A stretch of 64,000 nt of DNA from Candidatus Peregrinibacteria bacterium. Its GTDB lineage: Bacteria; Patescibacteriota; Gracilibacteria; UBA1369. The notes beneath the pieces are model-generated. The model saw only the letters and a program-made list of their open reading frames with translations, made no database searches and was not told where the DNA came from. The position numbers were made by a program, and so were the translations under genes. Positions 11,494 to 52,011 of this stretch are shown here, one piece after another (within the stretch, counting starts at the first letter, position 1; every line of letters starts with the position of its first letter). The stretch covers positions 38,565 through 102,564 of the forward strand of contig PLYH01000001.1 of the NCBI GenBank assembly GCA_003153355.1, in the 5' to 3' direction.

Positions 11494-14400
11494 ATGAAGA
11501 ACCGTCACTTTCTCAAGGTGGGAGCAATCGTCCTCACCGCTTTAATACTGGGATTTATTAACCTCCCTGCCGAACAGGAAAAAACTTTAATTCCAGCCAC
11601 TCCTCAGGCGCTTTTGGACAGCAAATACCATCTGGGCCTCGACCTTCAGGGAGGATCACAGCTGGATTATAAAATCGACCTCCAGAAAGTTCCGGCTGCG
11701 GACCAAAAAAACATCGTTGACGGTGTAATGAACGTCATCAACAACCGCGTGAACGGACTCGGTGTTTCCGAACCGAACATCTATCTTTCAACCGTAGGCG
11801 ACGAACAGCATTTAATTGTTGAACTTGCCGGCGTTAAGGACCTTGAACAAGCAAAATCTGTTGTAGGAAAAACGATTCAGCTTGAATTCAAAGAACAAAG
11901 AACCACTCAGGATCCAAATGCTGATGCCACTGTAAAAACCCAGGGGCAGGATTTCATTAGCCGAGTCCAAAAGGGCGAAGGTTTTGACGTAGCCGGCAAA
12001 GAAGAGCAACTCGCGAATCCGGGAAAAGTAACCTATACAGACGTAGACTATCAGTTTAAATCAGATGTATCCTCAAGTTTGACGGATCTTTTGTTCAATA
12101 AAATGAAACCGGGAGACGTCTCTACAAGTCTTATTCCGGCTCAAGGAGAATATACTGTAGATGCGAGCGGAAGTTTGACCCAGGCCAACGGCTACTATGC
12201 GGTAAAACTTATTGACAAGCGTGATCAGCAAAAAACTGACACAACCCCAAAAACCGTTAAAGTCAGTCATATTTTAATCGCATATCAGGGAGCGACCCGC
12301 GCGGATGCAACAGTCACCCGCACGAAAGACCAGGCCAAAGCTCTTGCCGACCAGGTTTTGCAGAAACTCCAGGGAGGTGCTACTTTCGCCGATTTGGCAA
12401 AACAATATTCCGATGACTCTTCAAATAAAAACAGCGGCGGCGCTCTTGACCAGGCCGTCACCGGCAGCGGCGTCTATGCCAAAGAGTTTGAAACAGCTTC
12501 GCTCGCCCTGAATAAAACCGGCGATCTTTCTCCGGTGACTGAAACCGAATTCGGTTTCCATATTATTATGGCCGACAGCGTCACCGCGGCAACGACCTCA
12601 ACAACGACCCAGCCACAGATAAAATACCAGAAAGTATTCTTCAACACTGCACCGGACCCATGGCAGGAAACCGGCTTAACCGGTGAACAGTTTGTCCATG
12701 CCGATGTTGAATTCGACCAGCTCTATCAGCCATATGTTTCGATTCAATTCAATGATGCGGGTGCCAAACTTTTTGAAGACATCACTGCAAGAAATGTCGG
12801 AAAACAGGTTGCCATCTTTGTAGGAGGACAGCTGATTTCCGCTCCGGTAGTAAACGAAAAAATCAGCGGAGGCAAAGCTCAAATCACCGGTCATTATACC
12901 GTTGATGACGCCAGCACTCTGGCGCAGGGATTGAACACCGGCGCCATTCCGGCTCCGATCGTTCTTGCCGGACAATATACTATCGGCGCGACGCTTGGTC
13001 AGGATGCGCTCACGAAAAGTTTGTGGGCGGGTCTCATCGGCTTCATCCTTGTGGCATTATTCATGATCTGTTTTTACCGTCTGCCGGGCGTACTCGCTAC
13101 GTTCGCGCTCATCGTGTACTCGATGATCATGTTCTTCTTAATTAAAATCGCCCTGCCGCTCTGGATTTCCATAGCAGTAGCGTTGGCAATATTTACCGTG
13201 ATAGTGCTGAAAATCATGAATTCAAAAGATTCTGGACCAGAAAAAGCAATCGGTATGATTCTTTCATGTTTCATTCTCTTCTTTATCACCTTCCTTCTTT
13301 CCACGCCTATCGTTATGACTCTAGCGGGTATCGCCGGCGTGATTCTTTCCATTGGTATGGCCGTTGATGCCAACATCCTTATCTTTGAAAGAATTAAGGA
13401 AGAGCTGCGCGATGGACGAACGTTAAGTTCAGCAATTGAAATCGGTTTTGACCGCGCGTGGAACAGTATCCGTGACTCAAACTTCTCTTCTCTTATTACT
13501 TGCGGAATCCTCTTCTATTTTGGAAGCTCAATCATCCAGGGTTTTGCCTTCAACCTTGCAGCAGGTATTCTCGTATCCATGTTTACGGCCATCAACGTCA
13601 CCAAAACATTGCTCATGGCTATGGTAAACACGAAATTCGCAAATAATCTGGCGCTGTTCGGTGCTCCGAAGCAAAAAGAAAAGAAACTTGTTCCAATCAT
13701 CCAGAACCGAAAACTCACATACTATATTTCAGGAACACTGCTCGTACTTGCAGTCATCGGCATTCCGATCTTCGGGCTGAAACTGGGTTTGGATTTTACC
13801 GGAGGAACGCAAATGGAGTTCGATAACTTCACGAAATCGGTAACGGCTCAACAAATCATACAGGCATTTGAACAAACCGCCGACAAACTGAACAAGAGCG
13901 GAGCAGTGGCAGCCGCGACATCGGCTGCAGCAACTCAAGCTGCTCAACCTGTGGCTGTAACTCAACAATTCGGCGGCATTAAAGTCACTTCTACCACGCC
14001 GGCTGATCAAACCCAGCAGTCATTGAGTACATTAGCCAACAATGCAGCGAACGCCCAAATCTCAAACACTGCAGATAATACGATCGATCTTGGAACTCCG
14101 GAAGTTGTTCCAACCGCGAACGGTTATCTTATTAAGACCCGCCACATCAGCACCACCGCTCACGATCTCATGATTCCGGAACTCAAGAATGTTTTAGGCA
14201 GCTTTGATGAAACACGCTTTAATACCGTTGGTCCGACCGTTGGTGAAAGCCAGGGCTATCGTGCATTGTTCGCACTGGCCATAGCCAGCTTGATGATCAT
14301 TCTCTATATAGCATTTGCGTTCCGCAAAGTTCCACGCCATGTCGGCCAGTGGAGATTCGGAGTTTCGGCTATCGTCGCGCTGCTCCATGATCTCGGCATC

Positions 14401-14799
14401 ATGCTTGGAATCTATGTGTACTTCGGCGTATTCTTCGGCGTTCAAATCGATACGCTCTTTATTACTGCCATGTTGACCGTCATGGGCTTCTCGGTTCATG
14501 ACACGATCGTAGTGTTCGATCGTATCCGTGAAAAACTCAAATATCAGAAACGCGATGAAACTTTTGCAGAGGTGGCTAACCAGGCCGTGAACGAAACCAT
14601 CGCGCGTTCGATCAACACTTCATTCTCGGTATTCCTTACATTGCTGGCCCTGGTGATCTTTGGAGCAGACAGCATCCGCTTCTTTGCCCTGGCTCTGATG
14701 GTTGGTATCGTTGCAGGTACATACTCTTCCATCTTCGTCGCATCACCGATCCTCGTGGACTGGCAAGAATATGCACAAAAACAGAAGACCAAATCATAA
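11494..14799 (+). CDS. secDF: SecD-SecF fusion protein with parvulin-type PPIase insertion in the SecD extracytoplasmic region
   Basis: SecD: LGLDLQGGSQLDYKID, GMAVDANILIFERIKEELRDG. SecF: LGLDFTGGTQMEF, VMGFSVHDTIVVFDRIREKL. Internal parvulin: VKVSHILIAYQG...GATFADLAKQYSDDSSNKNSGGAL...FGFHIIMADSV. Confidence 0.95.
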   Translation: MKNRHFLKVGAIVLTALILGFINLPAEQEKTLIPATPQALLDSKYHLGLDLQGGSQLDYKIDLQKVPAADQKNIVDGVMNVINNRVNGLGVSEPNIYLSTVGDEQHLIVELAGVKDLEQAKSVVGKTIQLEFKEQRTTQDPNADATVKTQGQDFISRVQKGEGFDVAGKEEQLANPGKVTYTDVDYQFKSDVSSSLTDLLFNKMKPGDVSTSLIPAQGEYTVDASGSLTQANGYYAVKLIDKRDQQKTDTTPKTVKVSHILIAYQGATRADATVTRTKDQAKALADQVLQKLQGGATFADLAKQYSDDSSNKNSGGALDQAVTGSGVYAKEFETASLALNKTGDLSPVTETEFGFHIIMADSVTAATTSTTTQPQIKYQKVFFNTAPDPWQETGLTGEQFVHADVEFDQLYQPYVSIQFNDAGAKLFEDITARNVGKQVAIFVGGQLISAPVVNEKISGGKAQITGHYTVDDASTLAQGLNTGAIPAPIVLAGQYTIGATLGQDALTKSLWAGLIGFILVALFMICFYRLPGVLATFALIVYSMIMFFLIKIALPLWISIAVALAIFTVIVLKIMNSKDSGPEKAIGMILSCFILFFITFLLSTPIVMTLAGIAGVILSIGMAVDANILIFERIKEELRDGRTLSSAIEIGFDRAWNSIRDSNFSSLITCGILFYFGSSIIQGFAFNLAAGILVSMFTAINVTKTLLMAMVNTKFANNLALFGAPKQKEKKLVPIIQNRKLTYYISGTLLVLAVIGIPIFGLKLGLDFTGGTQMEFDNFTKSVTAQQIIQAFEQTADKLNKSGAVAAATSAAATQAAQPVAVTQQFGGIKVTSTTPADQTQQSLSTLANNAANAQISNTADNTIDLGTPEVVPTANGYLIKTRHISTTAHDLMIPELKNVLGSFDETRFNTVGPTVGESQGYRALFALAIASLMIILYIAFAFRKVPRHVGQWRFGVSAIVALLHDLGIMLGIYVYFGVFFGVQIDTLFITAMLTVMGFSVHDTIVVFDRIREKLKYQKRDETFAEVANQAVNETIARSINTSFSVFLTLLALVIFGADSIRFFALALMVGIVAGTYSSIFVASPILVDWQEYAQKQKTKS

Positions 14800-37225: not shown

Positions 37226-37786
37226 ATGGAAAAATTGCTGTATTTGAAAAACAGGGAAGGAACGGCAGAAAAACAAAAATTCATTTTCCTGAGCATTGAA
37301 AAACCTTCGGGACAGGCTTCGGGAACCGGCACTTTAAGTCTTGCCGAAACCATGGAGAAAAAATTCAACACCAACCTGAACGTTGAAACCCCATTCAGTG
37401 CCGATTTCAATGCTGTGCTGGAAAATCTTGGGAACCAGGCAAAAGAAAAAAATCCCGAGCTCAGCGCCGAAAGCGTCAGACAAAACCTGACCGACACGCT
37501 CGATCCGGGAAAAACTCTCGATGAAATCCGTGATTATCTTCAGAGCAAAGGATGCAGGACTGCCGCCATCGTTGATGGAAGATTCAAATTCTTTGCCGGA
37601 CCAAAAGGTGTGCAGGAAATTTTTCTCTCGGAATTTTTCAAACCCCGCGAAGTAAAAATCGGCGGCGAAGGAACATACACCCATGAATACCTTCTCAAAA
37701 AAGAAGCAATGATGAGTCAGACGATGCAAGCCTTGCAAGCTCTCAAAGGGGAGCTTCCCGAAAATCCGCCTAATAAAATTTCCTAA
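37226..37786 (+). CDS. Hypothetical protein, first gene of the giant-protein locus
   Basis: 186-aa ORF behind a strong promoter, 9 nt from the next gene. Confidence 0.75.
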   Translation: MEKLLYLKNREGTAEKQKFIFLSIEKPSGQASGTGTLSLAETMEKKFNTNLNVETPFSADFNAVLENLGNQAKEKNPELSAESVRQNLTDTLDPGKTLDEIRDYLQSKGCRTAAIVDGRFKFFAGPKGVQEIFLSEFFKPREVKIGGEGTYTHEYLLKKEAMMSQTMQALQALKGELPENPPNKIS

Positions 37787-37795
37787 ATAACGTCT

Positions 37796-40700
37796 ATGTT
37801 CAACGAAAAACGCATACTTCTTTTCCTCAATCACGGGGAGCGCGCAAGCTTCAAGGGCAAGCGCATGGCTTACGCTGGACCAGAAAAACTTGAAGGTGCT
37901 CCGGCGGAAAGCAAAGAAACGCTGAAACCAGCTGAAAAGACTGAAGTGTTAAACGATCTCATGAAGAATGAATACAAAACCGAATGGGACGCCGCAAAAG
38001 ATCCGATCCAAAATTTACAAGAGTTCGCTGACGGAATTTATGGCGACAATAAGGGAAAAGCCGCCTATGCTAAAAAACTTCTCCAAGAAAGTCTCAAATG
38101 GGAAGACGCAACAACTTTCGCAGCCGACAAAGCAAAACTTTCCAAGGAAAAATGCACAATGGTGAACCTGAAAAACGGCAGCATGAAATTTTACAAGACC
38201 GACTCTTTCAAACCTGAAAACGAAATCAAACTTTCCACGCTGAACGCAGTCATCAGAACTCCAAAGGAAAGCGTCGTATCGCCTCCTCCGGTCGTTGAAA
38301 AAAAAGAATCGGATGAAGGGACCGACCAACAAAAATCCGCCCTTGAATTCTTTAAAAAAGCTTTTCCAGGCGCCAAACCCGACCAGATCCGCATCAGCGG
38401 AACCGAATCCCTGGGAGTCGGAACCAAAGCAGACTTAAACCTGCGGGGATATTTTGGGGGAGCAGAGATGAAGAACGCAGACCCGGACTATTATGGTGAA
38501 GACGGCAGCGGAAGATTCCTCAGCGGTGACAATATCGTTGATGACCAGGGCTACAGAACACATTATATTCCGGCTGAGATCCAGCAGGGATTTGTAGTTG
38601 AAGCTCCAAAGAAAAACGGGGTTATGGGCAAGTTCGTCCTGGCAAAACTCACCAAAAATGAAATCGGTTCAGGAAAAACTGACATTATGGGCTGGGTTGA
38701 AATCGGAAACCTGAGAAATAAAGGATATAAACACGAAGCGTTCGACAAAGTCCAAAACGTCTGGAGTAAAAAACCGGAATTTACCGATGAAGTCGTGGTG
38801 GTGGCGAGAAAATCTAATACGCTCGGAAATACCGTCCTTTATAATGACAAAGGTACTATGATCCGCATGATCGGAAAAGGCGAAGAAGTAATCACGGCGA
38901 ACAACATGGTAAGAAAAGTAGGGAATGAAGAATATATTAATGTAAGTTTTGAAAAAAGCGGAGCGAAAGACACGGGCTGGATAAGAAAAGACATGGTCCT
39001 TGAGCCTGCACCGGCTGAAGTAAAACCTCCTGAAGTAGCCTATAAAGAGGTAAAAGATGAACGTTCCGACGAAACGATGGTTGCAAAATATTACAACCGC
39101 GAAACCGGCAAAGTTCATTTTGACGGCGACAGGGCTGCAGAACAGACCATCACCATCAGCGATCTTTTCCCCGGAGCAAAAAAAGGCGATAAAATCCGCG
39201 TCAAACGCAACGGTGCTGGAAAAAGCATGGAAGCAAGCTTTGACCCAGATAAAACGTATACAAAATTCCTCAAAAACAAAACTGAAACCCGCAAAGGAAC
39301 TTTTGTTTATGGAAACGGAGTCCGCGTGGAAATTTACGACGGCGACGTCGTTCTGCCAAGATGGGAAACAGGCAAGTCAGCGGAAGGGCCAAAAGACCGC
39401 GCCTTTCTTGAAAAAGTCACGCTCAAAGCCGGAGACACCTATGAATCCATAGCTGACCGCGCGCTTTCCATGGACCCGATTATGAAGGCTTTTGAAAAAT
39501 CAAAATATAAATCCGTCGATGAACGCAGAGCCGCTTACGTCAAACTGCTCAAACAGTTTCAGGACGGAAATACGCTCTTCTTGGTTGTGCCGACTCCAAG
39601 TGAAGCAGGTGTGCCGACGGCCAACGAAGTAGCCGAAGTACGCTACGGTGAACGCGCCGAAAGTTACGCCGACAAATTCAGAAAAAACCGTGAAGCATCA
39701 GAAAAAGCTTTCCGCGGAAACATGAAGCAGTATCTGGACAACCAGGTGATGCTTGATAAAAGCTTGCTCGATGTCGTAGACGGAAACCTAAAAATGAAAT
39801 TTGCAACTGGGGAAGGATTTATGGGATTAGTAGATATTTTTAATGACAAAGAAGCATGGCTTAAACTCTGGAATGGCGAAGGATCAGTTGAAATAGCAGG
39901 ACTGGACCAATTGATTGCTGTTCTGAAACATCCGATCTTTGTTGAAGCCGGAATCACGCCCGAAAACGCTCGCGTAAAAATCATTGAACTCATTAGAGTC
40001 GGCAGAAACGACCGGGTGGATTTTGAAGATGTTTTGGATTCATTCAAAATCTATACCAATAAAAAAGGACAAACGGGCGATTTAGGCGACTTCAAAAATG
40101 AACTTGAAGAGAACTCCAAACTCATGAAAGCGAATGAAGGCGGATACAAAGCTTTCGAAGCAAAAAAAGGTCAGGGAATTTTAAAACAAACCCAGATCGT
40201 CAACGTTGTGACGGAAAAAAGAAAACTGGCGGAATCACAGGGCGATGATCCGGCAAAATATAAATCTTTTGCGGATTATGTCTGGCATCTGGTTGATGGA
40301 AATAAACAACAGTTCGACGACTATTTCAAAGCTGTTAAAGCTCTGGATGATCTGAAGGGCGATCCGGAATATCAGCAGTGGGGCAACTACCGCGAAGCGG
40401 CAAACCGCATCGGTTATTTAAACTACGTCCTTGAAGAAAGCGGTCAATTGCTCCAGGCCATCGGCCAGCTCAAAGTCAAAGAGTTCAAGGCTGCAGCCGC
40501 GAGTCCTGAAAAAATGGCTCCGGAAACTGGAAAATCTGTTGCCGCGATTGAAGATGTCTTCCGTGACTCTGATAAACCAAACTGGAGAAAAAACCATCCG
40601 GATGGCCGTTCATTCTCTTGGGAAGATGTTGTGGCCGGCACGAAAGAAAAAGATGAAGACACCACAGTGTACGGCAAATACTTTGATGAAAAAGCTCCGA

Positions 40701-43700
40701 TGCTCCGCATCCGCAGCCGTTTAAATAGATTCGGCGAAAAAGACCAGCCGCTCGACGGCGTTGAACGCATCAGCGAAACGGACACCGTGAACGAATTCAA
40801 TCGACTGATGAAAAAAGCTCTCCAACGTTTGATTTCCTGGAAGACCAACCCGGCGGCCGCTACGGAATTCATCAACAAATATACGGATTCCAACAAAGTT
40901 CAGCTTCCTCCAAAAAATAAAGGTGAAACCGATGAAGCATACGCTGTACGTGTCACGCCAATGTTAAGCAGTTCGCTGGATAGCGCATTCCAAACTCTCA
41001 AACTTGGCAGCCTCTCGCAACTTCAGCTCGAAAAAGATTCTCCTGCTCCGTTGGTTCAAAAAGTTCAGGATCAAAAAGATCTCATTAAAATAGGTTATTA
41101 CTTTGATTCCCGCGACGAAGAAAAAGGTCTTACCGAATCCACCGAAACAAAAGAGGCTCAGCTTTCCATGAATCCGATGATCAGAAAAGTTCAGGAAATT
41201 GCCATTGCCAAAGGCTACCCCAAAGAAAACGCAAAGAAAATCGAAAGCGTTTTCATCGGCGGTATCGGACTCAAAATCGATACGACCAAACCGCTCAGTC
41301 AGGCGTTTGGAGCCGGTCTTGGATCAGGCGTCGATCTTGGCGACGGATTTGTTTTAATGGTCGGCATAGGCGTGGACAGCAGCGGACCGGTCTTAGGTGT
41401 CGCCGTACGCAAAGGCATTAAACTCGGCGCTGAAAAAGACAAAGAACTCGGCATTACGGGAGGCGTAGGGGTCGGGCTCACTGGCCCAAGCATCGTAGGC
41501 GGGGTAGATTACTCATTCCCGATCTCGGACAGTCTTGATATGAAAATGTTTGCAGGAGGCAGCGTGGGAATTTTGGTATCTGGCGTGGGCGTCGGAATCG
41601 GCATCGGCAAAAACTATGAAACAGCCCAGAAAAATCTTGAAAAACAAATCGGCGGAATGGACACCAAAGAGATCGACGCGGAAAAAGATCCGGACAAAAA
41701 ATATCTGATGATCATCAACAATCCGCAGATCGGTCCATACTTCAGATCAGCGGCTCAGGAATTTGAAAACGAAAAAGATCAAAAATCCGTCGTCCTGGAT
41801 CTTTACGAGACATGGCGTGCAAACGTCTCGGGAGAAGCAGTAAGACAAAACTCAGCGCCGTTTATTTCAGGAGGAGGCGTTTTTGCGGGCATGCTGTTAA
41901 TTGGCGGCCTGCCGGTACCGTACGTCGGACCTTACCTCAGCTTCACTATCGGGAAAGATACATATGTCTACCGTCGCCAGTCGGAATCTTCCAAAGAAAT
42001 GGACAAGATTTCTCAAGAAAAAGCACAGGCAAGGTCGATGGACGATTTGAAAAAGAAATATCCGGACAGCAATCTGGCCGTAAAAGAAACAAAAGCCGCT
42101 GAAAGCGGCAATATTGGAACGATGGCCAATGGAGATAAAGGTATTCGTCTCAAAAACTTTGAGGTTGATCTTGCTCCGTTTAAAGACGAACCAAGTATTG
42201 ATAAATATAACGAGGCTTTGAGACCTTACGACATGAAACTGGTTCCGGATGCCGCAACCGGCCTTCTGGAATTCCAGGTTTTTGGAGCTTTGGGCAATCT
42301 CCAAATCCTGATGGACCCGGGAATGGAACACAAAGGTCTTATTTTGAAAGACGGAAAAGTGTTCCTGGCTCCCGGAGCAAAACCTGAACTCTTTATCACC
42401 CGTGAAGAGTTCTTCACACCATTCCCAAAGAAAGGTTCTCCGATGAACACCATTGTCACTATTTCAGACACACCGAAACGCACCCGTTCAATGATCCAAA
42501 GTGAAGTTGCGGAACAGGGTTCATATCTTTACCGCAAGGCCGGAATGCAGTGGGAAGTTATTTCCACTCCGAACGTTTCCAACAACAATGTTATGGATGC
42601 TGCAGGTTATGCCAAATACAAAGGAAACTTCGAAACCTTTAATGAAAAAGTCGAAGGCTTCGACGAAACAAAATGGAAAGAATATGAAGCCAAGGTCAAA
42701 GCCTTACCGTTCATTATGGAAGCCGAACCTGATCTTACCGACGAAAAACGAACACAGCTCAAAAAATTCAGCAAAGATTTCTTCAATTTCAACGTCGGTA
42801 AATACGGTGAATACACTACGGTAAAACCGGGTGACACGGAAGCAGTCATCAACGAAAAACGCCGCAATCTTGCTGCCCTGATCCAGACGGAAGCACAGAA
42901 AGATGCTCCGCCAAAAGGCAGAGGTATGGGAGCAAAACTCAGCGACCTTCAGATGAACTTTGTGATGTCGGAACTCATGGACGTGAGTTTCATGGAACTT
43001 GAAAAAGCTCCGGATAAACGCGCTCGCTTTGAACAAAACCTTGAATGGTCAAAACAGGCAGTACTTTTACCGTTCTTTCGCAAGAAGATCGCTGACCTTA
43101 ATGCCAAAGGACTCAATATTAAGAGCACTCCTGAGCAGCTGGTAGACCTTGTTTCCCGACGTTTGCTTGAGGACGTCAAAGACGAAGAACTCGGCAAACC
43201 GGGACAACCTTTAGGACCAAACTGGATGTTCAGTTCAGTCGCAGGCGCCATCGGTCTGGGTCTCCGCGGTGTTGCGGGATACATCACCCAGGATAAGTAC
43301 GGCGTCCTCGGTCTTCATGAAGAAGATTTGAGCAAACCGGGACTTGAAGGCGATCTTGCAAAAGTCATCCTTGAACTTGAAAGTCCGCTCGATACTCAAA
43401 ACGACAAAGCTTTCGCCGAATCGATAATGGCGAAAAAACTCATCGCGATGCCGGGTATGTGGTTTGTGCTTGGCGATGCCAATGCCAACCAGGCCTTGGA
43501 CGGAATGCAAAAAGCTTTGAAAGGCGAAGCCGTCGGCGACAACGCAGGCTTCCAGGAATTCAAAAAAATCGCCCAAGGCATCCGCGACACACAGCTCCGC
43601 GGAGGCAATGCTTTTATTTACAACGCGCCAAACGGCAACTCGTTTGAATTCAGATTGAACACCAAAGTCGCAGACATGGCACACGCGCGCTGCGGAAATG

Positions 43701-44053
43701 CATCGTTCGCCGTGGCAGAAGATATTCAGATTTTCGCGAGAATGGCCAAAGAAACAGGGCTCATCGTGGCAGGTGCTTCAACATCAACCGGCACCGTGTC
43801 TCCTGAAACCACCGCAAGATTTATCAGCTTTGGTTTAGCAGGCGTCGTTACCATCGAAACCGGCGCACAGGAAGCGCCTCCACCTCCACCTGGCAACAAA
43901 AACAATCAACCAGTCGGCGGCCCGGGCGGCAGCACCAAAGTTGGAGGCGGCACGGACACCGGCGGCGGAAAAGGCGGAACAGTACCTCCAAAAGTCGGCG
44001 GCGGCAATCCTCCTCCACCGGGCGGAACGAACAACCCTGACCAATCCGGCTAA
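37796..44053 (+). CDS. Giant 2085-aa protein with SH3-like/LysM-like segments, Gly-rich barrel-like core and Pro/Gly-rich C-terminal tail
   Basis: Single uninterrupted ORF. Core: FVLMVGIGVDSSGPVLGVAVRKGIKLGAEKDKELGITGGVGVGLTGPSIVGGVDYSFPISDSLDMKMFAGGSVGILVSGVGVGIGIG. Tail ends NPDQSG. Confidence 0.85.
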   Translation: MFNEKRILLFLNHGERASFKGKRMAYAGPEKLEGAPAESKETLKPAEKTEVLNDLMKNEYKTEWDAAKDPIQNLQEFADGIYGDNKGKAAYAKKLLQESLKWEDATTFAADKAKLSKEKCTMVNLKNGSMKFYKTDSFKPENEIKLSTLNAVIRTPKESVVSPPPVVEKKESDEGTDQQKSALEFFKKAFPGAKPDQIRISGTESLGVGTKADLNLRGYFGGAEMKNADPDYYGEDGSGRFLSGDNIVDDQGYRTHYIPAEIQQGFVVEAPKKNGVMGKFVLAKLTKNEIGSGKTDIMGWVEIGNLRNKGYKHEAFDKVQNVWSKKPEFTDEVVVVARKSNTLGNTVLYNDKGTMIRMIGKGEEVITANNMVRKVGNEEYINVSFEKSGAKDTGWIRKDMVLEPAPAEVKPPEVAYKEVKDERSDETMVAKYYNRETGKVHFDGDRAAEQTITISDLFPGAKKGDKIRVKRNGAGKSMEASFDPDKTYTKFLKNKTETRKGTFVYGNGVRVEIYDGDVVLPRWETGKSAEGPKDRAFLEKVTLKAGDTYESIADRALSMDPIMKAFEKSKYKSVDERRAAYVKLLKQFQDGNTLFLVVPTPSEAGVPTANEVAEVRYGERAESYADKFRKNREASEKAFRGNMKQYLDNQVMLDKSLLDVVDGNLKMKFATGEGFMGLVDIFNDKEAWLKLWNGEGSVEIAGLDQLIAVLKHPIFVEAGITPENARVKIIELIRVGRNDRVDFEDVLDSFKIYTNKKGQTGDLGDFKNELEENSKLMKANEGGYKAFEAKKGQGILKQTQIVNVVTEKRKLAESQGDDPAKYKSFADYVWHLVDGNKQQFDDYFKAVKALDDLKGDPEYQQWGNYREAANRIGYLNYVLEESGQLLQAIGQLKVKEFKAAAASPEKMAPETGKSVAAIEDVFRDSDKPNWRKNHPDGRSFSWEDVVAGTKEKDEDTTVYGKYFDEKAPMLRIRSRLNRFGEKDQPLDGVERISETDTVNEFNRLMKKALQRLISWKTNPAAATEFINKYTDSNKVQLPPKNKGETDEAYAVRVTPMLSSSLDSAFQTLKLGSLSQLQLEKDSPAPLVQKVQDQKDLIKIGYYFDSRDEEKGLTESTETKEAQLSMNPMIRKVQEIAIAKGYPKENAKKIESVFIGGIGLKIDTTKPLSQAFGAGLGSGVDLGDGFVLMVGIGVDSSGPVLGVAVRKGIKLGAEKDKELGITGGVGVGLTGPSIVGGVDYSFPISDSLDMKMFAGGSVGILVSGVGVGIGIGKNYETAQKNLEKQIGGMDTKEIDAEKDPDKKYLMIINNPQIGPYFRSAAQEFENEKDQKSVVLDLYETWRANVSGEAVRQNSAPFISGGGVFAGMLLIGGLPVPYVGPYLSFTIGKDTYVYRRQSESSKEMDKISQEKAQARSMDDLKKKYPDSNLAVKETKAAESGNIGTMANGDKGIRLKNFEVDLAPFKDEPSIDKYNEALRPYDMKLVPDAATGLLEFQVFGALGNLQILMDPGMEHKGLILKDGKVFLAPGAKPELFITREEFFTPFPKKGSPMNTIVTISDTPKRTRSMIQSEVAEQGSYLYRKAGMQWEVISTPNVSNNNVMDAAGYAKYKGNFETFNEKVEGFDETKWKEYEAKVKALPFIMEAEPDLTDEKRTQLKKFSKDFFNFNVGKYGEYTTVKPGDTEAVINEKRRNLAALIQTEAQKDAPPKGRGMGAKLSDLQMNFVMSELMDVSFMELEKAPDKRARFEQNLEWSKQAVLLPFFRKKIADLNAKGLNIKSTPEQLVDLVSRRLLEDVKDEELGKPGQPLGPNWMFSSVAGAIGLGLRGVAGYITQDKYGVLGLHEEDLSKPGLEGDLAKVILELESPLDTQNDKAFAESIMAKKLIAMPGMWFVLGDANANQALDGMQKALKGEAVGDNAGFQEFKKIAQGIRDTQLRGGNAFIYNAPNGNSFEFRLNTKVADMAHARCGNASFAVAEDIQIFARMAKETGLIVAGASTSTGTVSPETTARFISFGLAGVVTIETGAQEAPPPPPGNKNNQPVGGPGGSTKVGGGTDTGGGKGGTVPPKVGGGNPPPPGGTNNPDQSG

Positions 44054-44071
44054 TATTTCTAAAAATAAACT

Positions 44072-44272
44072 ATGAAAAAAAACAATCAACAAATCGGCTG
44101 GGTTCTTGCAATTTTAGCAGTCATCATCGTGATTATATTCATGGTGATGTCTCAACAAAATTCAAACAGTCAGGTGCCGACAGGCGGTGGACAGCAAGGA
44201 ACAGTTGCTCCTCTTATAACATCGCCAAGTCAACAAAGCGGTGCCGCAGTGAATCCGGATCAGTCTGGTTAA
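44072..44272 (+). CDS. 66-aa single-TM protein with Gly/Gln/Pro-rich tail ending NPDQSG
   Basis: TM segment IGWVLAILAVIIVIIFMVM; tail shared with the upstream giant protein. Confidence 0.75.
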   Translation: MKKNNQQIGWVLAILAVIIVIIFMVMSQQNSNSQVPTGGGQQGTVAPLITSPSQQSGAAVNPDQSG

Positions 44273-44296: not shown

Positions 44297-47200
44297 ATGA
44301 AAAATAAAAATCTAACAATCTGGCTCGTAGCGCTCACTGCTCTCGTTGAGCTTTTAGTTGCGCCGTTGCCAGTTTCTGCAGATTACCATCCGGTGTCTCG
44401 TCAGGCATGCGACCTTGGGATATTTCCTTTTGATCCGGCAGGTACAAAATTTTATGGAAGCGCCGCCGACAATTACATCAACGGCAGACCTTCGGAATTC
44501 CCAGGTGGAACGATTACTGATGCAATTTGTAACATTGCTATTGGCGGACATCTTACGATCCCTACAGTAACGCCATATACGACCCAATCATATAATCCTC
44601 AGCCAGTTACCGACACCGGCGACATTCCTTTGAAATCCGGTTCGCAAAACACCTACGTGCCAATCGGCCTTCATCAGCACAACTATTATAACGACTCTGC
44701 TGAAGAAACATCCGGACAGCAATATTTCTATAAATCACTCATTTCCAAATTCGAAATCGATTTTGCGCCTGATGTGGCATCAAATATCGATTTAAGCAAA
44801 ATAACCTGTATCACCGACGTTCCTGCGGGATTTTCCGCGGACGACCTTTCTGCAGACGGCGTTGCAAACTGTAATGGTTACGCACCGCATCTTTGGGGCG
44901 GAACTGAAGTAAGAAACAGCGCAAGCGGAGTCGTATGGACATTTGGTGAAAACGATCCTTCTTCTAAACCAAGAATTTTCGGATATAATCCTGATCTTGA
45001 TTCGCTCATCGGTTTTAATTCCAAACCGGACGCAAACCGAAACTTCTTTGCTTACGTACAGCTTCCAACACGGGAAGATGTTCCTGCGGATCTTTGGAGT
45101 TCAAGTACTTCATCAAAAGTCTTGCTCCGCGATTACGCAATTAAAAGGACAACGAACATGAGTTATCTGAACGACGATAATTACTGCAGCGTACCAAAAG
45201 ATTACGACACGCATTGGTGCTCAATGGACTGGAAAAGACCGGCACAATTCCAGACAGGAACACCCTATGGAAGCTCAACAGCCAACTACTATTGGTCCCC
45301 GATCGGCAGCACAGGCGTTGTCTGGAGAAAATCAGCACCTACTCCGGAAAAATGTACAAGCTTTACATTAACTCCTTTGACCTTAACCAATCCGGGACAA
45401 ACGACGCTGACCGGACACATCACCACGGATAAAGGACTAAGCCACAACGCAACGATTACCTGGACACAATCCGGCGGAACATTGGACACTTATCCAACGC
45501 AAAGCGCGGTAACGAATGCAGACATTATCAACAAATTCACCATTCCTAATCCGGGCAACGATGCAAATGTCACAGCAGAAGTCACCGCTATCAACGACGG
45601 CGTTGATCTTGGAACGTGTGCCGGTTCAAAACAAACAGCAAAGACCCCTCCTCCGACCTGTACAGGTTTGACGATCAGTCCGACCGGACCGTTCGTGGAA
45701 TCAGATTTGCCGCAAACTATTAATGTAAGTTCAGCAACGACTGGCGGTCTCAATCTCGACTATAAATGGACTTCAACCGCACCAAGTAAATTCACATACG
45801 ACGGCAATTCCGGAACATATTATGACACCGATACATCAACCACGCTGAACTACACCCTGCCAACCATCAGTGCACCGCAAACAATAACTGTCACGGCAGT
45901 GGATAAATCAAACCACGCCACGGAATTTGCAGGAACATGTCAGGCAAACATAAAAATCACTGTTCCTCCTCCTTTCTGTTATGACGTCGTTCCAAATTCA
46001 ACCACTCTTTCCAACACCGGCAGTGACATCTTCAGTGCGAAAGTGAACTACAGTGACGGCATCGACCGCAACACGACAGTAACCTGGACTCCTACAAACC
46101 TTAACTTAACTCCTCCGACCAGTCCGGAAACCAAAACCAGCGCCACCAACTTTGTAAAAGTGACCAATCCGGTCGTCTCGGGAAACCCAGTCTCATTGCA
46201 GATGCAGGTCACGGGCGTACCTGCGGGCGTGATCCTGCCACCGGGTGGCGATTGTGCAACCGGCAAAACCGCAAGTTCAGGCGGCGGCAATATGTGCCAG
46301 AATTTGAACTCCGGTTATTTGGGAACAACTATTTCAGGCGGCAGCAGCCAGCTTCTCAATCCAAATCCTACCAACGTCAGTTCTCCAAATCCTTCACAGG
46401 TAAGCTGGACAGTAAGCGGCAGTGCAACGCTTTCACCGAATCCGGCAAATAACGTGGCTTGTTACGATTATTTGGGCCCTGATTTAAGTAATACATCATT
46501 TACCACCATCGTGGGTTGCAGCTACTTTTATAAAACATCATCTGTTCAGGGAACGAGCGGATCAGTAAGCATGAGCGCGGTTCCAAACCTTGGAAGCGTA
46601 GCAGCTTGTAACCAGACAATCACTTTCAACAATCCGATCACGCCTCCGGGCGGCGGTTCATGTACAGGTTTGAGCTGGAGCCAGGTAGGCGGCCAGATCT
46701 GCGTCAGTCCTATCCCAAGCGGATCATTCAGCGGAAGCTATCAATGGACCATCGGTTCAACAACCTTCAATGACGGCACATGCCAAACCGTTCCGCCAAA
46801 CACGAGCGTAAACGTCCAGGCAATCGGAGCTCCTGCATGTCAGGTCAATATTCCTCCGCAACCACCACAGAATAATCAATGTACGATGGGACCTCCAAGC
46901 TACAATAATGGAGAGCTTTGTCTTACCAACGTCCAGAATTATGTCGGACCGTTTACATGGCAAATCGGCAGCGGCGCTCCGTTCTCAAACGGACTCTGCC
47001 AGCCCGTTCCGCTAAACACTCCGGTAACTGTTACTGGACCAACACCGGCTTGTAGCATCAACAACTACACCCCTCCGGTTCCACCAAGCCCTCCAACGTT
47101 CACCAAAACGGTTGAAATCGTAAATCTTCCGGGGGCGAAACCAATTTCTGGGGAAACAGGCGTGAAGAGCGGATTTAATAATCCGTTAACGCTCGTCCCA

Positions 47201-48658
47201 AGCAACATCAACGGCGGTAAAACCGGAACGATCGACGGCAAAGTCGTCAAATACACCCTCACCTTTACTCCGACGAACGACAAAACCGATGCAACTATCA
47301 CCGACCCGATGAACAGCGGAAAAATCCAAGGCTACATCAATGGATCATCAACAACCGGAGGCGACATTAAATATGACGACACATTCTTGATCAACGGCGT
47401 GGTTCAATGTCCTGCCAGTGGACCGGCCACCGACTGTTACACTCTTACAGGAGATCAAAATACCGTATTGCCGATCATCCAATTATCAAGCCTCAATGCC
47501 GGACAAGTCGTCACGGTAACTTACCAGGGCATTGTTGAAAACAGTTCAATCAGCGACAATAGTTGTTTGACCGGCAGTATTTGTGAAGAAAAATATACGA
47601 ACATTGCTACTGCAAACTACGCCGTACCTTCAATGACTCCGGGAACATTAAGCGCATCGGCAGCCGTCCAAAGTTTCTGCCAGTATATCTTGACCCGCGC
47701 TTCCGGCGACATTTATCTTGAAACCAGCCTGCAGTACGGACAAGACATTTCGGTCTGCTCACAATACAAAAACAGCACCGGTCTGATCATCACTCCGGGC
47801 GCGCCTCCTGAACAAACCGCGCCAAGTACAGGTGCAGCAGCTTCCCTGAACGTCGGTCACGAAATCTGCAACCTCGACAAATTCGCCGTGAACTTAACAA
47901 CCCAAACGGGTAAGACGGAAACCCTCTATGGCTCACAGGTTGCTTCAAACCTTTCCAGTGAAATCTGTGAAGTCAGACTCCGCCCAGGCCAGGATTGGGG
48001 CAAGAGCCAGATCGCTTCCAGCATTGAAGAAAACAAAACCCGCGTCGCCCGCTGGACTCCGAATTTGACTGCAGGAATGACCATCCAAAGTTTGAACGAT
48101 CTTCCGCAAACATCAACCGGCGTCTACCACATAAAAGGAAATCTTACGATTGATCCTTCACAGGCTGTTCCAGATTCAATCACCAATGCTTTCATTTCCG
48201 ACGGTGACGGCGCAAAAACCTTCATCGTAGAAAACGGCGACCTGAATATTAACAGCAACATCAACTACGGCCCTTGCAAAAATCCGAGCGGCGTTTGCAC
48301 CGTACGCGATACGGCTTCACTGGCTTTCATCGTCTTAAACGGAAACATTAATATAAGTCCTAAAGTCACGCAGATGTCCGGCGTCTACTTTGTCCAGCAG
48401 GGTAAAGATACCAATGGAAATCTTGTCGACAACGGCAAACTCGTTTCAACCGGTGAAGCAAACACTTATGTTCCTTTGACGGTTTTCGGATCGATCTACG
48501 GCGACATTCAGGATCTGTTGAGTCACCGCAAATTCTCCGGCGATCCGGCGTCCAACGGCGGTTCAATCGTCATCCGCTTTGATGAACGCATCATCCTCAA
48601 CACACCTCCTGGATTACAGGACATTCTCCAGTTGAGCGAAAACCAGGTGGCCCAATAA
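44297..48658 (+). CDS. 1453-aa secreted surface protein: Ig-like Cys-bounded domains, four-Cys repeats, DUF11-like domain
   Basis: Signal peptide MKNKNLTIWLVALTALVELLVAPLPVSA; repeated Cys-bounded beta domains; C-terminal FDERIILNTPPGLQDILQLSE. Confidence 0.85.
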   Translation: MKNKNLTIWLVALTALVELLVAPLPVSADYHPVSRQACDLGIFPFDPAGTKFYGSAADNYINGRPSEFPGGTITDAICNIAIGGHLTIPTVTPYTTQSYNPQPVTDTGDIPLKSGSQNTYVPIGLHQHNYYNDSAEETSGQQYFYKSLISKFEIDFAPDVASNIDLSKITCITDVPAGFSADDLSADGVANCNGYAPHLWGGTEVRNSASGVVWTFGENDPSSKPRIFGYNPDLDSLIGFNSKPDANRNFFAYVQLPTREDVPADLWSSSTSSKVLLRDYAIKRTTNMSYLNDDNYCSVPKDYDTHWCSMDWKRPAQFQTGTPYGSSTANYYWSPIGSTGVVWRKSAPTPEKCTSFTLTPLTLTNPGQTTLTGHITTDKGLSHNATITWTQSGGTLDTYPTQSAVTNADIINKFTIPNPGNDANVTAEVTAINDGVDLGTCAGSKQTAKTPPPTCTGLTISPTGPFVESDLPQTINVSSATTGGLNLDYKWTSTAPSKFTYDGNSGTYYDTDTSTTLNYTLPTISAPQTITVTAVDKSNHATEFAGTCQANIKITVPPPFCYDVVPNSTTLSNTGSDIFSAKVNYSDGIDRNTTVTWTPTNLNLTPPTSPETKTSATNFVKVTNPVVSGNPVSLQMQVTGVPAGVILPPGGDCATGKTASSGGGNMCQNLNSGYLGTTISGGSSQLLNPNPTNVSSPNPSQVSWTVSGSATLSPNPANNVACYDYLGPDLSNTSFTTIVGCSYFYKTSSVQGTSGSVSMSAVPNLGSVAACNQTITFNNPITPPGGGSCTGLSWSQVGGQICVSPIPSGSFSGSYQWTIGSTTFNDGTCQTVPPNTSVNVQAIGAPACQVNIPPQPPQNNQCTMGPPSYNNGELCLTNVQNYVGPFTWQIGSGAPFSNGLCQPVPLNTPVTVTGPTPACSINNYTPPVPPSPPTFTKTVEIVNLPGAKPISGETGVKSGFNNPLTLVPSNINGGKTGTIDGKVVKYTLTFTPTNDKTDATITDPMNSGKIQGYINGSSTTGGDIKYDDTFLINGVVQCPASGPATDCYTLTGDQNTVLPIIQLSSLNAGQVVTVTYQGIVENSSISDNSCLTGSICEEKYTNIATANYAVPSMTPGTLSASAAVQSFCQYILTRASGDIYLETSLQYGQDISVCSQYKNSTGLIITPGAPPEQTAPSTGAAASLNVGHEICNLDKFAVNLTTQTGKTETLYGSQVASNLSSEICEVRLRPGQDWGKSQIASSIEENKTRVARWTPNLTAGMTIQSLNDLPQTSTGVYHIKGNLTIDPSQAVPDSITNAFISDGDGAKTFIVENGDLNINSNINYGPCKNPSGVCTVRDTASLAFIVLNGNINISPKVTQMSGVYFVQQGKDTNGNLVDNGKLVSTGEANTYVPLTVFGSIYGDIQDLLSHRKFSGDPASNGGSIVIRFDERIILNTPPGLQDILQLSENQVAQ

Positions 48659-49872: not shown

Positions 49873-52011
49873 TTAAAACTTCCCGAGGGTGTGAAGTTTG
49901 TAAATAATTTCTGCAACTTCACGGCGCAACGTGTATTGCGTTGGAAACAGATCTGCACCGACGAAGAGGCTGTTATCCATTGAATACTTTGCATACCCGC
50001 TGAACCACTGTCCTGCTGCAACGTCAGCATAAGACAGACTGCTGTTGCTTGGCATCGGATCGCTCAGGTTGCGGAGCAGCAACGCGAGGAATTCAACGCG
50101 GTCTACTGCACGGCCCGGTCTGTAGAAACCTGCATCAGCGCCGGACTGGTAACCGGTGATCATGCCGATGCCTTTTCCATCACAGACATATTGGAATGCC
50201 CATGATACCGGAGTCACATCCGGGAACGGATTAACACTGTGGCAATAATCAGTGGATGCATTAAATTTATTGAAGGTCGTAAGCACAATCTTTGCAACCT
50301 GGTCGCGCTGGAGATCGGCATTTGGAGCAAACGTACCATCCGGATTGCCGGTCATCGCACCCGATCCTTTGACATATGTGAACGCTGCGCAATCAGGATC
50401 GGTTGACGGTACATCGGTAAAGCCGTCACATTGGCTGCCTGATGGCGGAGGCGGTGGAGTAACACTGCCCACACTCACAGTTACATTCGTAGATTTTGAA
50501 TCGGTTCCTCCCGCGTTGGTTGCCGTAACTTTAGCGGTATAAACACCGTCGGCAACAACATTGCCGGTGGTGTCTTTTCCATCCCAGGTTGTAAGAATCG
50601 AACCAGTGGATTTGCTTTGATTATCAATCAATCTTTTCATTTCAACGCTGCTTCCGTTCAAAATGGAAACAGTGACATTCGCATTGGCACTGAGGTTGAA
50701 AGAAATTGTCGTGGTGTCAGCATTGCCGTCGCCGTTCGGACTGATCGTTGCCGGAGCAGCGCTCAAACCCGTAATCGATGGAGCAGAAACACTCGCAGCC
50801 GCTGCTTCAAATGCACCCGGATCATATTGGGCGGTGCCGTTACCGTCGCCGTCGAGCGGACGGGCAGTGCCGAAATAATCGTTGGCCACACCACTTTCGG
50901 TTGTACCTTTATCGATACAAGTTGAACCGCTTGCCAGTTTATAACTGTTTGGATCCGTGCCTGATCCGGAAAATTGAGGATCGCAACTTAGGTTATTCCC
51001 GCTCATCGCAGGATCGCTGGAGTTGCTGAAAAGTGCATTGTAATCAAAAACGGACGTATCGCCTCCGTTATGAACAAGTGTGGAATTGCCTACTGTGTAA
51101 GCAATAAGATTGTTATCGATCGTGTTGCCATTGCCGAGAGCAACGATCGCCGCATTACTTGCGCCCGAATTAATCTGGTTGTGCGCCAGAGTGTTATTCA
51201 CGAACTGGCAGCTGCCTCCCGGAATAACAAGAGCGTCAGCGGTATCGCCTAAAATAAAATTATTATAGACGAGCGCACCGTTGCTGCATTTTAAAGAACC
51301 GCCTCCACCATTGGAACTGTTGGCATAGTAAAGATTATTATATGCCGTAACTTTACCGTTATAATTTGAAACAAGGCCGCCGTTCGCGGTATTGCTGTAA
51401 AATTTATTTGCGCTTACTTCCGCCGTATTGGAACCGGTGATGATAATGGCCAATGCAACGGCGCTCGTGGTGATATTATTGTGAATAACATTGTTCGTAA
51501 CGGAAAAATCAAGAGTGGTAGCACCGTTATTCTGAATAAAAATCCCGCCCCCGTTCAGACCTGAGATATCAAACCCGTCCATTTTTCCAGCAACCGAAGT
51601 AACATCCAAGAGACCCGCTGCTCCGCCTGTCTGAATATTTGAAGGTGTTGATGAAGGAGCCTGGGTGGAAAACGCGCTGTTCCATCCGCCGGAAAGATTA
51701 AAACTCTTTGAATAAGTAGAGCCATCAACATTCCACGGAAGAGTTTCAGCGGAATAGTTCCCGCCCGCGACCCAAATGTTGTCGTAATCGGAATTCGCCG
51801 GAGTTTCCAGATAATTCACGGCGTCGGTAATCTTCTGAAATGGATGAGCAAAGCTTCCATCTCCAGCCGGAGCTGCACTGGCGTCAACGTAGACACCGCA
51901 GCTGTGGAGCGTATGACAGTTAAGAATAGGAGGAATAATTGCCGATGCGCTGCTCGCTCCAATTGAAAAGAGCATGAGCGCACTCCCCATGGAGGCGATC
52001 AATTTTTTCAT
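49873..52011 (-). CDS. Secreted right-handed beta-helix protein with FlgD-like Ig domain and three C-terminal SLH motifs
   Basis: Signal peptide; Asn-rich helix repeats; SPNGDGNADTTTISFNLSANANVTVSI; C-terminal FTDVP.../FPDVTPVSWAFQYV.../YADVAAGQWFSGYAKYS SLH motifs. Confidence 0.87.
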   Translation of the reverse strand: MKKLIASMGSALMLFSIGASSASAIIPPILNCHTLHSCGVYVDASAAPAGDGSFAHPFQKITDAVNYLETPANSDYDNIWVAGGNYSAETLPWNVDGSTYSKSFNLSGGWNSAFSTQAPSSTPSNIQTGGAAGLLDVTSVAGKMDGFDISGLNGGGIFIQNNGATTLDFSVTNNVIHNNITTSAVALAIIITGSNTAEVSANKFYSNTANGGLVSNYNGKVTAYNNLYYANSSNGGGGSLKCSNGALVYNNFILGDTADALVIPGGSCQFVNNTLAHNQINSGASNAAIVALGNGNTIDNNLIAYTVGNSTLVHNGGDTSVFDYNALFSNSSDPAMSGNNLSCDPQFSGSGTDPNSYKLASGSTCIDKGTTESGVANDYFGTARPLDGDGNGTAQYDPGAFEAAAASVSAPSITGLSAAPATISPNGDGNADTTTISFNLSANANVTVSILNGSSVEMKRLIDNQSKSTGSILTTWDGKDTTGNVVADGVYTAKVTATNAGGTDSKSTNVTVSVGSVTPPPPPSGSQCDGFTDVPSTDPDCAAFTYVKGSGAMTGNPDGTFAPNADLQRDQVAKIVLTTFNKFNASTDYCHSVNPFPDVTPVSWAFQYVCDGKGIGMITGYQSGADAGFYRPGRAVDRVEFLALLLRNLSDPMPSNSSLSYADVAAGQWFSGYAKYSMDNSLFVGADLFPTQYTLRREVAEIIYKLHTLGKF

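Follow-up and report, generated by a model that had tools for sequence, protein, structure and literature searches.

Matched motifs encoded by neighbouring genes are known from the bacterial amyloid signalling sequences, where BASS 1-10 occur in Bell-domain proteins and in the neighbouring NLR proteins (PMC8086366), and fungal HET-s/r0 pairs are organised in the same way. A short C-terminal tip, tethered to a folded part by a disordered Gly/Pro-rich linker, is found in SSB, whose conserved tip is recognised by numerous partners in the cytoplasm (PMC7145534, PMC10164576). Here, we describe two neighbouring genes of a Candidatus Peregrinibacteria bacterium that encode unlike proteins with the same C-terminal tip, and follow the pair through the order to which the bacterium belongs. 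To our knowledge, surface construction in these tiny and largely uncultured bacteria has hardly been explored, and neither the gene set nor co-varying tails of this kind were found described in the literature.

The window, i.e. the whole stretch of 64,000 nucleotides that was analyzed, comes from a genome of 1.456 Mb (G000). The two genes lie in a cluster of four, all on the forward (+) strand and separated by gaps of 9, 18 and 24 nt, which encode a 186-aa protein (37226..37786), a giant of 2085 aa (37796..44053), a membrane protein of 66 aa (44072..44272) and a protein of 1453 aa (44297..48658). None of the four matched a Pfam or NCBIfam family. The 1453-aa protein has a signal peptide (by eye) and a conserved C-terminus (profile A2), and its tail does not match that of the giant. 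The giant, in which no signal peptide was recognised by eye, ends in ...TGGGKGGTVPPKVGGGNPPPPGGTNNPDQSG, and the 66-aa protein ends in ...TGGGQQGTVAPLITSPSQQSGAAVNPDQSG. As reported in a preliminary description of the window, both thus end in NPDQSG (44033..44050 and 44252..44269), encoded by AAC CCT GAC CAA TCC GGC in the giant and by AAT CCG GAT CAG TCT GGT in the 66-aa protein, so that all six codons differ, each of them synonymously. This was confirmed, and a search of the whole genome found NPDQSG followed by a stop in exactly these two places. The looser DQ[S/T]G-stop added two places, where it closes open stretches of 15 and 66 codons with a non-coding appearance. Elsewhere in the window, a 1101-aa SecD-SecF fusion (11494-14799) is interrupted at residues 237-360 by a prolyl isomerase domain of the PpiC (parvulin) type (Rotamase_3, E 1.5e-25), and a 712-aa surface protein with a beta-helix, an FlgD_ig-like domain and an SLH domain is encoded on the opposite strand (49873-52011, -), adjoining holA downstream of the cluster.

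When the tails of the 53 non-overlapping ORFs of the window were compared, the giant and the 66-aa protein scored 34 and all other neighbours 8 or less; over all 1378 ORF pairs, the runner-up scored 15. The further similarity of the two tails, TGGGxxGTVxP, is by itself only mildly unusual for such composition, with a shuffle p of about 0.013 without NPDQSG and 0.0002 with it.

Orthologues of the giant were found with a profile of its C-terminal domain (A1) in 57 of the 90 genomes of the order. Beyond the order the domain is all but absent, a single further genome giving a weak match among the 360 genomes of the class. The named relatives that have the same locus are Candidatus Peregrinibacteria/Peribacteria MAGs, and the gene order recurs as tpiA/hpf, (short gene), giant, (small membrane gene), large signal-peptide protein, holA. 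The third gene, which encodes the 1453-aa protein in the window, is present in 66 of the 90 genomes and has the C-terminal motif GSITIRFDQRIxLNTPPGL; contigs were scanned with its profile A2, since profile A1 was too diverse for that scan. Within the order, 21 genomes encode a small anchored protein between the giant and the third gene; 18 of these were found through the profile of the giant (window included) and three were added later through the third gene. In more than 30 other genomes the giant adjoins the third gene with no small gene between them, as is the case in all f14 members seen and in about half of the window's family. The length of the giant itself ranges from about 1500 aa in some genomes to 3344 aa in others, and the variable part appears to be its N-terminal half. 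Many of the genomes are MAGs, and the tips were taken from stop codons as read in the assemblies.

The preliminary description regarded the shared tail as conserved. For the sequence this did not hold: the tip differs in each genus, and neither NPDQSG nor TGGGxxGTVxP is a fixed tag. What is kept across genera is the identity between the tip of the giant and that of the small protein, while the tip sequence itself turns over. The giant and the small protein end, respectively, in NPDQSG and NPDQSG in the window genome, ATPDDI and ATPADI in G009, TAAGRR and QAAGRR in G054, SGTGDL and EGTGSL in G085, SGAGV and SSAGV in G051, EHSNE and DSANE in G007, PDNSI and EFNSL in G018, NSTF and EKSF in G047, SSV and FGV in G041, VPTE and TVPE in G029, EPSR and APSN in G021, and STPQT and VTPLN in G044. 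The longest match is that of G086 (QSSGNIDTTGF and QSTGIIDPSGF), where the two ends are alike over 19 Q/S/G-rich residues. Weaker resemblance is seen in G005 (FAL and TEL), G020 (IFD and ITE), G048 (GIF and LTQ) and G057 (GDFS and YDNF).

In a permutation test on these 17 pairs, one per genus, chosen with the pairs already in view, the summed BLOSUM62 score of the last four residues was 136 for the true pairs and averaged -39 (sd 20, maximum 72) over 100,000 re-pairings (p <= 1e-5). The final residue was identical in 11 of the 17 pairs, against 1.8 expected. Without the four strongest pairs, p was still <= 1e-5 for the last 3-5 residues, and the signal was lost (p 0.12-0.57) when the tail of the small protein was displaced by 1-6 residues. 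When re-pairing was confined to families, as a control for common descent at that level only, the true pairing was the single best of 34,560, whether the last 3, 4, 5 or 6 residues were used. Orthologues that kept both genes but lost the shared tail would have refuted the reading of the preliminary description; the comparison came out in its favour, with tails that match within genomes over 17 genera. In gapped local alignments of the last 8-12 residues, with two later pairs included, the total lay beyond all 100,000 permutations, but only about one giant in two matched its own partner best. Roughly ten pairs give a strong signal and the others a weak one, G005, G020 and G057 being individually weak. 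That the resemblance is a chance product of low-complexity C-termini might be suggested by such weak single pairs, and by the linkers of both proteins being rich in Gly, Pro, Ser and Thr; this explanation is effectively refuted by the permutation and register controls and by the gap to the runner-up among the window's own pairs, and we give it almost no credence.

Three later pairs, found after the rule had been formed, gave a mixed result. In G046 the ends ...SATLN and ...STTLNPE are shifted by two residues, and in G014 only the last residue, N, is in common. In G089 (L275) the sequences TAGAGAGYHEDTN and TAGARAGWHTTSDN are clearly alike, with the giant's copy lying ~17 residues before its stop, an offset that may be either a real extension or a MAG frameshift. 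Together, these pairs weakly favour shared sequence over a strict C-terminal register.

Over the 63 identical tail residues of the 17 pairs, 26 codons were identical, against 24.5 expected from the codon usage of the locus. Since codon identity is at the random level and the residues are kept, the match is maintained by selection at the protein level. Both readings that the preliminary description had drawn from the window alone, selection on the shared tail and the improbability of recent copying, are thereby borne out, the latter for the window genome by its six differing codons. A process in which the small gene's end is repeatedly overwritten by that of the giant, through duplication or gene conversion, would produce a match devoid of function, and the exceptional pair of G086, with 40 of 57 bases identical over the 19 codons, is compatible with fairly recent copying. 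The random level of codon identity over all pairs, the purely synonymous differences at the window's tips and the dissimilar 3' flanks of the two genes speak against it, and unselected copies at synonymous saturation would have lost their residue identity, so that overwriting is already disfavoured and strikes us as very improbable. G086 may instead show how tips become synchronised.

The tips do not behave as a signal shared by many proteins. Searches for exact patterns, which diverged copies would escape, found no third protein with a DQSG-stop tip in a real gene of the window genome, AGRR-stop only in the giant and the small protein of G054, PSGH-stop only in the giants of G065, G066 and G078, and SNDI-stop only in the giant of G001. 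A C-terminal sorting tag, one of the options raised in the preliminary description, was therefore rejected as a proteome-wide signal, no third protein with the same tip having been found in the genomes tested; the tip also differs between genera and co-varies in both proteins, which argues against such a tag. The giants of G065, G066 and G078 (f14) keep the tip SPSGH with no adjacent small gene, and no exact partner was found, so the giant's tip has a use of its own and can do without the small protein. Mimicry of ssrA tags, or a degron, looks unlikely as well, since in the nine of these genomes for which ARAGORN called a tmRNA tag, every tag ends in xA (such as VFA, AYA, AVA, MAA, VAA and AFA) and is unrelated to the tips; in the window's own genome ARAGORN called no tmRNA tag. 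A narrower kind of sorting would have one enzyme, by transpeptidation, attach just these two proteins to the same surface structure. NPDQSG and several other tips that contain P loosely resemble sortase B-type motifs, and a sortase is mentioned for Peribacteria, which are described as rich in large exported proteins (PMC4736985). Against this stand the lack of a hydrophobic segment and basic tail after the motif, the position of the tip at the extreme C-terminus, in the window as in the majority of pairs, and the lack of a consensus common to the genera, which make such an attachment quite unlikely.

The two proteins that share the tips are built differently. In the window's giant, the conserved C-terminal domain (profile A1, 43061..43870) is followed by a disordered Gly/Pro-rich linker (residues 1983-2079, 43742..44032; predicted pLDDT 23-34 from about residue 1985) and then by the tip. 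In an AlphaFold model, computed with 18 sequences, the giant's C-terminal half had a mean pLDDT of 64, with the C-terminal domain confident and the last 100 residues fully disordered; a docked tip can therefore not be seen there. Residues 1157-1272 (41264..41611) form a Gly-rich, predicted eight-strand meander that resembles a small membrane beta-barrel. In this low-confidence model, a fold search of the PDB pointed to designed transmembrane barrels and OmpA/OprF-like barrels (best E 1.7e-3). A beta-barrel would be unexpected, as these bacteria are usually taken to lack an outer membrane. Giant orthologues have no transmembrane helix in common, and a sequence search of the PDB found no relative of the giant's C-terminal domain, nor of the f7 ectodomain described below. 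Near the N-terminus, the window's giant has GKRMAY (residues 21-26, 37856..37873), and of 35 complete giants, 22 have R[FLMP][ILVTA][FYWHN] within their first 60 aa, for example in KEKRFLYE, KESRFVFD and KENRLIFA, as opposed to 1.8% of other sequence windows. Similar strings are found in the upstream gene of G009 (ENKRFVYL) and at the N-terminus of the window's 186-aa protein (EKQKFIFL); as a guess, the motif could be a targeting signal.

The small proteins have little in common across genera except an anchor and the tip. The 66-aa protein of the window consists of a KK N-terminus, one transmembrane segment (residues 9-27), a 33-aa linker and the tip, and similarly bare linkers are found in f1, f13 and G051. 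In G020, G048, G029, G044, G046 and G014 the small proteins are lipoproteins with a lipobox, and in G021, G044 and G057 they have a conserved GVGxxY-type stretch. The f7 small proteins (L033:2721-3257, L034:4111-4641, L177, L197, L175) have a beta-rich ectodomain of ~110 aa; the AlphaFold model of one of them (pLDDT 47) was left out of the fold search. By eye, this ectodomain resembles cohesin/Ig folds, and Pfam gave no match for the one member scanned. Judging from the lipobox or the positive-inside rule, the C-terminus of every small protein would face outwards, in which case the small protein presents the tip of the giant as a copy tethered to the membrane.

This arrangement is what we would expect if the two tips were ligands of one shared receptor, an explanation to which we give about even weight. 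The tips of two unlike proteins change together between genera, as they should if one receptor reads both, and the predicted disorder of the giant's tail is likewise expected of a docking peptide. The matching tips and their co-variation, the C-terminal register of most pairs, the selection at the protein level, the anatomy and the synteny are the observations from which the explanation is built. The giant would then comprise a folded domain, a disordered linker and a short docking tip, and would reach the outside of the cell; the small protein would join a membrane anchor (transmembrane segment or lipid) through a linker or small ectodomain to an outward copy of the tip. A co-evolving receptor outside the membrane would read both, and the small protein's tip would retain this receptor at the cell surface, and through the receptor also the giant or its partner. 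As the receptor drifts from genus to genus, both tips would follow. The most economical site for the pocket would be in the same operon, in the giant's own conserved domain or in the 1453-aa protein, and this is the location we favour; the small protein, fixed in the membrane, would then imitate the tail of the giant and might, for instance, anchor or nucleate an assembly. A surface assembly of this kind, in which the anchored peptide mimics the tip of the signal-peptide-less and possibly barrel-bearing giant and both dock into one genus-specific pocket, is put forward tentatively. The specific version in which the small protein anchors an assembly of giants, each docked by its tail into a neighbouring giant, is somewhat more doubtful still. 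The diverse chemistry of the tips (I, F, R, E, G) asks much of one homologous pocket and counts against a shared receptor, as do the f14 tips kept without a small gene, the weak pairs, the mixed later pairs and the reliance on a presumed export of the giant, in which no signal peptide was recognised. Of the options in the preliminary description, a partner-binding tail is still the best.

The preliminary description had also proposed to look for a co-occurring protease. S41 peptidases read the last few residues of their substrates and usually prefer non-polar tails. Both tips could be recognition tails for such an S41/Ctp protease outside the membrane, with the small protein as co-substrate, decoy or regulator of the giant's processing. 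The enzymes are indeed present, in 86 of the 90 genomes of the order and usually two per genome, the window genome also having two, but they are there with or without the small gene, so that their co-occurrence does not discriminate. About one third of the giant tails have F, I, L or V as their final residue, as such a protease would prefer, whereas in many tips the final residue is G, E, R, N or H, unlike the usual non-polar preference. A general protease should, moreover, not need a tip unique to two genes, and we consider this role unlikely. That the tips pair directly, identical strands stacking on each other in the manner of amyloid signalling motifs, is less likely again. Adjacent genes with matching, family-specific motifs are the very organisation of the bacterial amyloid signalling sequences (PMC8086366), and the Q/S/G-rich match of G086 would suit such stacking. 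Most of the matches, however, span 3-6 residues with like charges (GRR/GRR, DDI/ADI, SNE/ANE), which is unfavourable for in-register stacking, and the known amyloid motifs comprise ~20 residues or more and are not restricted to the extreme end.

The finding ties three conserved proteins without family assignment, present through most of the order, to a recognition code that can be tested, and offers a clear case of two proteins whose ends co-vary although they lack homology over their length. If the small protein is indeed a mimic, otherwise unlike proteins retain the same ends even as the code itself is altered between genera. The pairwise tail test is applicable to neighbouring genes in other genomes.

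The known systems each match the locus in part. Recognition of the last residues of extracytoplasmic proteins would be shared with the substrates of S41 Ctp/Prc proteases, whereas here the enzyme is present regardless of the pair and the tips are mostly not of the typical non-polar kind. Tags of tmRNA (ssrA) are also short C-terminal peptides, yet those called end in xA. As in BASS and HET-s/r0, two neighbouring genes share a short terminal motif that differs between families; unlike in BASS, both copies are C-terminal, short in all but G086, often charged and devoid of an amyloid pattern, and the carriers are a giant protein and a membrane anchor instead of proteins with NLR or Bell domains. 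The SSB tip, conserved and read in the cytoplasm, differs from a tip that turns over between genera and has a copy on a second, membrane-anchored protein. The matched motifs of neighbouring genes are the nearest known organisation, sharing the pairing and differing in length, composition and partners, and the linker-tethered docking tip of SSB (SSB-Ct) is the nearest anatomy.
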